The notes under the pieces were generated by a model. It was not told the origin of the DNA and did no database searches. It was given only the letters and a program-made list of their open reading frames with translations. The translations under genes were made by a program, and so were the position numbers. Of a DNA stretch of 64,000 nucleotides, positions 47,189 to 49,029 are shown in pieces. Source of the DNA: Acidobacteriota bacterium (GTDB taxonomy: Bacteria > Acidobacteriota > Thermoanaerobaculia > Gp7-AA8); NCBI GenBank assembly GCA_021781455.1, contig JAJXWV010000027.1:1-64000 (forward strand). The letters are read 5' to 3'. Numbering within the stretch: position 1 is the first letter of the stretch; every line of letters starts with the position of its first letter.

Positions 47189-47276
47189 CGAGTGCTGAGT
47201 GCTGAGTGCTGAGTACTGAGTGCTGAGTCTCCCCCTTCCGCTCACTCAGTACTCAGCACTCAGTACTCAGCACTTC
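47189..47276. repeat. Heptamer inverted repeat (TGAGTGC type)
   Basis: Five TGAGTGC/TGAGTAC units (47191-47228) face their complement (47245-47275) in the divergent gap between pyrR and the response regulator. Confidence 0.9.
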
Positions 47277-47350: not shown

Positions 47351-47728
47351 ATGCCTAAGATGAAGGTCCTGATCGTGGAGGACAACTCCGATGTCCGGCA
47401 CCTCTACGCCATCGGCTTGAACCGGAGGGGATTCGAGGTCAAGCTCGCCTCCGACGGCGCCCAGGCCCTGGAGCGGATCCGGACCGAGAAGCCTGACGTC
47501 ATCCTGCTCGATTGGCTCATGCCGGTGATGGACGGGGGCGAGGTCCTCAACCACATCGCCGGCGACGGCGGCGCCCCCATTCCCATCATCGTCATCAGCG
47601 GGCAGCCGGCGCCGGCAAGCATCGATCCCCGAGTCAGCTCCTGGCTTACAAAACCGGTGGGCATCGATCAGCTCGTCGCTGAGATCGAGAGCCGGACAGG
47701 GCCGGCCGCAAACAGCCAAGTACGCTAG
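47351..47728 (+). CDS. Single-domain response regulator
   Basis: 125 residues, receiver only. E10-D11 acidic pair, D54 phospho-acceptor (LLDWLMPVMDG), S83 and K101 are intact. Twelve nucleotides before the FHA protein, so the two are co-transcribed, pairing two phospho-signalling modules. No histidine kinase is nearby. Confidence 0.92.
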   Translation: MPKMKVLIVEDNSDVRHLYAIGLNRRGFEVKLASDGAQALERIRTEKPDVILLDWLMPVMDGGEVLNHIAGDGGAPIPIIVISGQPAPASIDPRVSSWLTKPVGIDQLVAEIESRTGPAANSQVR

Positions 47729-47740
47729 AATCAAGGAGAA

Positions 47741-48196
47741 ATGGCCAAACTCTTCTTCGTCGGCCTGGATGGCACGGAGAAAAGCTATCGCCTCCAGACG
47801 CACCGGCCGTTCACGGTCGGACGCGATCCGGGGAACGACATCATCCTCCGCGATCCGAAGGTGTCCCGGCATCATGCCGAGATCGTCTTCGAGCGGGGAT
47901 TCTTCGTTCTTCATGACCTGTCGAGCGCGAACGGGACCTGGGTCAATGGAAAGCGCGTCCGGGTGGCTCCCCTGACCCACGGCGCGCGGGTGCGCATGGG
48001 CAACAGCGAAGGGCGGTTTTCCGAGGAGCTTCCCACCGAGAACGACGCGGCCGAGGAAGGGTTCGCGCAACCGTTTGAACAACCGATGCCCTCCACGGAA
48101 TCGGTCGACGCCATTGCCACCTCGGAGCATGAAGGCATCAACGCCGCAACTCTTCCCCACCCGAAAGTCAGACCTCAGGAACTAAAAAAAAACTAA
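47741..48196 (+). CDS. FHA-domain protein
   Basis: 151 residues. An N-terminal phosphothreonine-binding FHA domain (about 20-90) has G27-R28, SRHH at 42-45 and NG at 64-65. AAGGAGA precedes the ATG. A disordered acidic linker follows and the frame ends at a run of nine A residues (48184-48192). A -1 shift at that run joins it without stop to the membrane protein at 48250-49029, so the real product may be a fusion of about 430 residues. Partner proteins would be Ser/Thr-kinase substrates; no kinase is in view. Confidence 0.9.
   Translation: MAKLFFVGLDGTEKSYRLQTHRPFTVGRDPGNDIILRDPKVSRHHAEIVFERGFFVLHDLSSANGTWVNGKRVRVAPLTHGARVRMGNSEGRFSEELPTENDAAEEGFAQPFEQPMPSTESVDAIATSEHEGINAATLPHPKVRPQELKKN
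48184..48192 (+). other. A9 slippery run at the end of the FHA frame
   Basis: Frame 0 reads CTA AAA AAA AAC TAA. Slipping back one base gives AAA CTA AAC GTT GAC..., open into the next coding region. It could be a programmed slippage site or an undercounted homopolymer in the assembly. Confidence 0.55.
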
Positions 48197-48249
48197 ACGT
48201 TGACGACGAGCCGCCGACCGAGCCGTTCGACTCGGGACGCGGCGGAGCC

Positions 48250-49029
48250 GTGCCCGCGGCTTCCGGCGCGCCGGTGGCGCTCGCAGCCGACATTTCAACG
48301 CGACCCGCCTACGTGCCGCCTCCCGAAGCTTCCGGACCGTTCGCGCACAGCCGCTTCCACTTCATGAGCGGCATGCCCGCCGAAGAAACGGCGCGCATCC
48401 GCGACGACGAAGGAGAGGTCGTGCTGACGTACCGGAGCTTCGCCAGCGTGATCGGCGTCGTGGCGGCGCTCGTCGCCGGAATCGTGGTGATGACGGGGCT
48501 CGCCGCGACGATCTTCCTGGTCGTCGAAAAACATCCGCTGACCTCCATCGGCGCGCTGGTCCTGAGCATTTTCTTCAGCCTGCTGATCGTGGCGCTCGTG
48601 CCGCCGGTCAAGGTCACGCTGTACGACGGTTCGGCGCCAGCCCTCGTGATCGCGCAGCGGTCACGCGCGGCCTTTCCGTCGGTCACCCACGCCGTGGTGA
48701 CGCCCGACGGACGCACCATCGCCCTGCTGCGGAAGAGTTTCTTCGCGCGCGCAGGCCGCAACCGCTGGACCATGCTCGATCCCGCCGGACACGTCATCGG
48801 GACCGCCGTGGAGGAATCGTTCGGCCGTGCGTTCGGGCGAAAGCTCGCCGGTAAATTCAGCCGGGCCTTCGAAGCGAACGTCCGCATCGACTCCGGAGGC
48901 AAGCACCTCGGGACGATCGCCAGGCGGCCGAACGAGCGCGGAGAAGTCGACGTCCTCGACTGCTCCCCCGATCTCGATCGCCGGATCGCCGTGGCCCTCG
49001 GAACGCTGATCCTCGGCAGCGAGCCGTAA
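48250..49029 (+). CDS. Two-helix membrane protein, possible C-terminal half of the FHA protein
   Basis: 259 residues if started at the GTG 48250, which lacks a properly spaced ribosome binding site. Two membrane helices at about 64-91 and 97-119 are followed by a soluble domain of about 140 residues (VKVTLYDGSAPALVIAQRS...) related to phospholipid-scramblase-like/LURP-type beta folds only by general appearance. Its frame is open upstream to the A9 run, so it is probably expressed as a fusion with the FHA domain. Function unknown. Confidence 0.7.
   Translation: MPAASGAPVALAADISTRPAYVPPPEASGPFAHSRFHFMSGMPAEETARIRDDEGEVVLTYRSFASVIGVVAALVAGIVVMTGLAATIFLVVEKHPLTSIGALVLSIFFSLLIVALVPPVKVTLYDGSAPALVIAQRSRAAFPSVTHAVVTPDGRTIALLRKSFFARAGRNRWTMLDPAGHVIGTAVEESFGRAFGRKLAGKFSRAFEANVRIDSGGKHLGTIARRPNERGEVDVLDCSPDLDRRIAVALGTLILGSEP

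Follow-up and report, generated by a model that had tools for sequence, protein, structure and literature searches.

To our knowledge, few cases of conserved RNA polymerase slippage in ordinary cellular genes have been documented. In Citrobacter rodentium, slippage has been measured on the A11 run of tssM1 and, according to the accessible part of the report, both the truncated and the full-length product are required (PMC4256274). In Thermus thermophilus dnaX, slippage on a run of nine A gives proteins of two lengths, with about half of the product being shorter, and in Shigella flexneri mxiE two overlapping open reading frames are joined through an inserted base (PMC1088944). The same source, as far as its available text goes, gives nine as the length at which many bacteria show selection against A/T runs.

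The gene described here lies in a 64,000-nucleotide stretch of an Acidobacteriota genome, referred to below as the window. We consider it probable that this one gene yields two proteins by programmed RNA polymerase slippage on a run of nine or ten A. ORF calling splits the locus into two open reading frames. The first, at 47741-48196 (+), encodes an FHA protein of 151 residues and ends GAA CTA AAA AAA AAC TAA. The nine A occupy 48184-48192 (+) in the phase xxA AAA AAA AAy, and the 0-frame stop TAA stands just 3' of them at 48194-48196 (+). From 48193 on, the -1 frame meets no stop until 49027-49029, which makes a downstream frame of 278 codons plus stop (48193-49029, +). With one extra base at the run the FHA and downstream frames are continuous over about 429 residues, and without it the product has 151. 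The earliest ATG, GTG or TTG in the downstream frame is a GTG at 48250, about 54 nt past the FHA stop, and a scan found no Shine-Dalgarno match for it. The sequence-only reading had described an FHA frame ending CTA AAA AAA AAC TAA in nine A, a one-base slip back that reads without a stop into a membrane protein, and a GTG without a usable ribosome binding site; all three descriptions hold. In the long GC3-rich reading frames of the window, AAA accounts for 18% of the Lys codons, CTA and TTA together for 2% of Leu, GTA for 3% of Val and TCA for 6% of Ser. The run is therefore improbable as mere protein coding, since codon use in the window disfavours AAA and CTA/TTA.

Pfam places the FHA domain at residues 25-87 of the first frame (+) with an E-value of 4.7e-22, and the score of 78.6 bits is to be compared with a gathering cut-off of 20.7. 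Against the NCBIfam models for OdhI and FhaB, with cut-offs of 200 and 125 bits, the protein scores 47.5 and 54 bits. In the 11 of 18 loci that were aligned, G27, R28, S42, H45 and N64 are invariant in every row; this G, R, S, H, N set is presumably the conserved phosphopeptide face of FHA domains, and there are no binding data. Directly upstream lies a single-domain response regulator gene (47351-47728, +; Pfam Response_reg, E 3.9e-21). A receiver-like gene stands immediately 5' of FHA in 15 of the 16 relatives that carry the run, and the remaining locus (L013) begins too near its contig end. A -10-like hexamer, TAGAAT, is found at 47726-47731 (+), 9 nt 5' of the FHA ATG. By script, TANAAT occurs 6-11 nt ahead of the ATG in 15 of these 16 loci, and L013, where the contig end was too close for the script, shows TACAAT on inspection. 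The conserved TANAAT near the ATG suggests that the FHA mRNA may be leaderless, judging from sequence alone.

Two other observations concern the upstream region. The hexamer in the window overlaps the stop at the end of the response regulator frame. At 47191-47275, in the spacer that separates this gene from pyrR, repeated GTGCTGAGTACTGAG-like units stand opposite inverted copies, possibly a long hairpin or a remnant of recombination.

The comparison covers a family of soil Acidobacteria; those of its genomes that could be named are MAGs, with 17 loci assigned to Acidobacteria 'gp7' / Thermoanaerobaculia and coming from several projects. The downstream protein was matched in all 18 family genomes. 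Among these, 16 carry the run at the identical site at the end of FHA, as A9 in the genome of the window (G000) and in G001, G010 and G013, and as A10 in the other 12. In all 16 the run starts at a third codon position and a 0-frame stop follows 0-9 nt past it. The residue that precedes the Lys codons differs (Leu, Val, Ser), yet its codon ends in A in every case. Of the 16 genomes, 13 encode the membrane part in the -1 frame and three (G002, G003, G006) in the +1 frame, and none has it in frame with FHA; in G013 it is truncated by the contig end.

Homopolymers are prone to error and the named relatives are MAGs, which speaks for an error of sequencing or assembly, or for a decaying pseudogene, as the cause of the split. 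However, the same site recurs in 16 genomes from 11 genera, with the early stop, the phase and the downstream frame all conserved. Conservation on this scale rules out error and pseudogene alike, leaving them practically no chance, and the recurrence refutes the alternative offered by the sequence-only reading, that one A had been missed in the assembly.

Two genomes of one genus (G004, G005) and the outgroup G018 have no run, and in them FHA and membrane part form a single open reading frame of about 400-415 residues. Since such uninterrupted fusions occur naturally in relatives, the long form can be taken as a genuine protein. Fused homologues and conservation of the A run had both been proposed as checks on the earlier idea of a two-product gene; both were found, and they support it, without transcript or protein data. 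In a maximum likelihood tree the three fused sequences fall to one side of a branch with 92/95 support, and the +1 form, present in three genomes of two lineages, requires two changes. The placement of G018 and G006 is less certain because both are on long branches. Apart from the family, a search of 148 genomes of the class found the downstream protein only in G018, which belongs to the same order and gave a single partial hit for the membrane protein, and, in a few genomes, as C-terminal-only paralogues. A plasmid search with the membrane part gave no match.

The two frames obtained by ORF calling could also be independent genes, one for FHA and one for a membrane protein translated from a start of its own. 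That the downstream part lacks a Shine-Dalgarno sequence counts only weakly against this by itself, because FHA too seems leaderless. However, across the run-bearing loci there is no conserved start position with a Shine-Dalgarno match. Where downstream starts exist their positions differ, and three genomes (G012, G008, G002) have no ATG, GTG or TTG at all ahead of the conserved domain. By script, TANNAT is absent from the 180 nt past the run in 16 of 16 loci. With both scans negative, a conserved start and a promoter of the TANNAT type are both lacking for the downstream part. Coding conservation also begins directly after the run: a TEP-like motif follows shortly 3' of it in most of the 16 loci, usually before any conventional start, and in the window it is the P-T-E-P at 48214-48225 (+), in the downstream frame between the run and the first possible start. 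Two genes would, in addition, leave the fused homologues and the A run itself unexplained. We reject this arrangement as highly improbable for want of starts and promoter-like sites. It is no more than a guess that the P-T-E-P could be a phosphothreonine site for the protein's own FHA domain.

Pfam reports no family above its cut-off in the downstream part. To obtain a fold, the membrane part was modelled by AlphaFold2 from 15 natural sequences, with a pLDDT of 87.0 and a pTM of 0.83. According to the model and to VIA-align, the segment at 48337-49020 (+) is a tubby/LURP-one-like beta barrel with a C-terminal helix. Two helices are inserted in the barrel as a hairpin, at 48448-48525 (+; model residues 42-67) and at 48535-48594 (+; model residues 71-90). 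Both are probably transmembrane, a reading that rests on their hydrophobic sequence with no topology program behind it. VIA-align matches the model to 1zxu (AT5G01750, which we take to be a LURP-one type protein) with a Z-score of 13.1 over 139 residues and an rmsd of 3.0, and to five tubby entries with Z-scores of 10.6-11.8, the remaining rows being at 8.0 or lower. Foldseek alone gives weak support, with a best E-value of 0.014. The likeness is one of fold: identity is only 10-11%, and neither Pfam nor NCBIfam reported a match of the membrane part to the tubby/LURP-one sequence family. Unlike those proteins, the window protein adds the two-helix insert and has an FHA domain in front. The downstream product had been called a two-helix membrane protein before; the two helices remain, and as modelled it is a tubby/LURP-one-like barrel into which they are inserted. 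Given such a barrel and a probable transmembrane hairpin, the long form would place the FHA domain at the membrane beside a fold of the lipid-binding type. Lipid binding by the barrel and phosphothreonine binding by the FHA domain are both inferred.

Long A/T runs are rare in this genome. In its 4.88 Mb there are only six A/T runs of at least nine. Three are intergenic, each directly 3' of a strong T-strand hairpin (40-nt MFE of -20.2, -21.6 and -22.0), and for that reason we read them as terminators. The remaining three are sense A runs within genes, namely FHA, a DUF374 acyltransferase (Pfam E 3e-27; A10 at G000:C10:29036-29045, locus L072:2037-2046) and a DUF4388 protein (Pfam E 2.3e-27; A10 at G000:C89:30300-30309, locus L076:2001-2010), and all three are conserved in the family.

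The DUF374 gene was matched in 17 of the 18 family genomes and carries the run in 12 of these. The C-terminal part lies in the -1 frame in all 11 run-bearing loci that were read, and the five loci without a run are all in frame. The DUF4388 protein was matched in 15 of the 18 genomes, and all 15 loci have A9-A11 at a single site and in a single phase with the frame open through the run. One extra base there leads to a stop exactly one codon past the run in all 15, a count that includes one locus (L109) read by eye. In G018 an A10 stands at the equivalent site with the C-terminal part in the -1 frame, and the default product of that genome is therefore the short form. Outside the order, in a sample of 34 loci from the matches in the class, there was no run within 120 nt of the site in 14 loci and no A/T run of at least 8 in 20 further loci, two of which gave no open reading frame by script and two of which were cut by contig ends.

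A homopolymer tract within a reading frame is known as a contingency device, and the FHA run could thus be a phase-variable tract, with replication slippage deciding from cell to cell whether the fusion is made. In that case some genomes should be caught in frame, but none of the 16 run-bearing genomes is, an outcome whose probability is about 0.0015 on an expectation of one third and with kinship left aside. The DUF4388 run, unlike that of FHA, keeps the reading frame in all 15 family loci, from which it follows that the default state is set gene by gene. Phase variation was rejected on this fixed out-of-frame state, and we see very little likelihood in it.

Elsewhere in the family there are 49 other sites with A/T runs of at least nine, and only two of these reach at least ten. 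At 25 of the 49, the T strand has a hairpin-like fold just upstream, with a 40-nt MFE no higher than about -13. The open reading frames at the 49 sites form just two recurrent pairs, and no fourth recurrent slip gene was found among them, although not every site was inspected singly. One pair, L140/L150, is a shared terminator region. The other, L141 (G008) and L152 (G009), comes from two genomes of a single genus, where an A9 lies inside the gene of a Lys/Ala-rich protein; L141, one of the 25 hairpin-like sites, is actually in a coding region.

The same long protein could be made from a faithful mRNA by programmed -1 ribosomal frameshifting on A AAA AAC or A AAA AAA. The heptamer A AAA AAC, of the X XXY YYZ type, is in frame at the window run, and a -1 shift is what 13 of the 16 genomes need. 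However, a ribosomal slip motif requires only six or seven A, and among the 44 runs in the three genes, including DUF4388 of G018, none is shorter than nine (8 of A9, 32 of A10 and 4 of A11). The other three genomes need the opposite, +1 shift, and the phase of the DUF374 run varies between 0, 1 and 2. Neither a shared stimulatory structure nor a conserved Shine-Dalgarno sequence accompanies the site: over 16 loci the mean z-score for folding 3' of the run comes to -0.04 (pseudoknots were outside the analysis), with low energies at two single loci (G009, z -3.19; G016, z -2.08), and an AGGA-like sequence occurs within the 22 nt ahead of the run in just 2 of 16. Structure and Shine-Dalgarno sequence were thus both rejected as stimulators, none being common to the loci. 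We prefer slippage of the RNA polymerase to that of the ribosome because the runs never fall below nine, no downstream structure is shared and three genomes need the opposite shift. Ribosomal frameshifting, the chief competing account, appears unlikely to us on these grounds. Translation is not excluded, since A AAA AAA also serves as a slip motif for ribosomes, and these can slide along consecutive AAA codons, as the available part of a study of ribosomes on iterated AAA codons indicates (PMC4363877). The -1 slip of the sequence-only reading is kept as a junction of frames and is more probably an event of transcription than of the ribosome. Slippage at transcription is the most likely level, well ahead of translation, and unproven without RNA or protein data.

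By default, then, the FHA gene would be read as a soluble phosphothreonine-binding protein of 151 residues. While transcribing, RNA polymerase would realign on the A9 or A10 run, and the share of mRNA with one extra A would let ribosomes pass the stop into the downstream frame. In the three relatives of the +1 class, one A fewer or two more would restore the frame. The read-through product would be an FHA-linker-membrane protein, tubby-like, of about 429 residues. Comparison of the genomes establishes, at the level of sequence, a conserved run and phase, an early stop, an out-of-frame coding continuation and natural in-frame fusions; that the slip takes place at transcription, and at what rate, is inferred in the absence of RNA or protein data. 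The run appears to be maintained by selection for slippage. A further inference is that the two forms, one soluble and one in the membrane, compete for phosphothreonine signals or pass them on between cytoplasm and membrane.

If this is so, the ratio of soluble to membrane form of a phosphothreonine-binding protein would depend on the error rate of transcription. One bacterial family holds three such genes, in-frame forms persist in relatives, both directions of shift occur, and the default product of DUF4388 is swapped between two families. Origin, direction and selective value can therefore be tested by comparison. A slippage regulon within one order, in which the A runs of the FHA-tubby, DUF374 and DUF4388 genes respond together to the state of the RNA polymerase, is a doubtful extension. 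If true, nucleotide supply, speed and temperature, acting through the polymerase, would jointly set the levels of the anchored sensor, the acyltransferase and the truncated DUF4388 protein.

In the literature searched, no paper was found that joins an FHA domain with transcriptional slippage or programmed frameshifting, or that links DUF4388 to slippage, and among the matches listed for FHA and frameshifting more broadly none was relevant. For transcriptional slippage and Acidobacteria together only PMC3711429 was found, in the accessible text of which they meet merely in a table row, and nothing on point was found in the available portion of a review (PMC5009743). As far as this search goes, the mechanism is of a known kind; what is new is the protein, how deeply the device is conserved, the change in the direction of the shift and the occurrence of three such genes in one lineage.

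Two features by which a slippage gene can be recognised are met at the FHA locus. A conserved coding run of at least nine is present in 16 of 18 family genomes, and the shifted frame of 278 codons encodes a conserved continuation, its protein being matched in 18 of 18 and fused in frame in G004, G005 and G018. As a protein, the short form resembles the small soluble proteins of the GarA/OdhI type in carrying its FHA domain in a short soluble chain; it differs from them in falling far under the OdhI and FhaB cut-offs and in having a proposed membrane form made by slippage. As a slippage gene it is most readily set beside tssM1, where, in the part of the report available, a poly-A run also precedes an early stop, the truncated product is the default, the full-length one follows from extra A's, and no Shine-Dalgarno sequence or structure is nearby (PMC4256274). 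There the run is an A11 and the gene one for secretion, described from a single species with a further case in Yersinia (PMC4256274, same part), while the run described here is A9 or A10, conserved through a bacterial family, in a gene of the phosphothreonine-binding type. As far as the source text extends, dnaX mirrors the DUF4388 case, being long by default and short after the slip; its protein is unrelated, and the FHA gene has the short form as default. The mxiE gene resembles the FHA locus in its overlapping reading frames joined by base insertion and differs, as far as the accessible text tells, in its U run and in encoding a transcription activator (PMC1088944).
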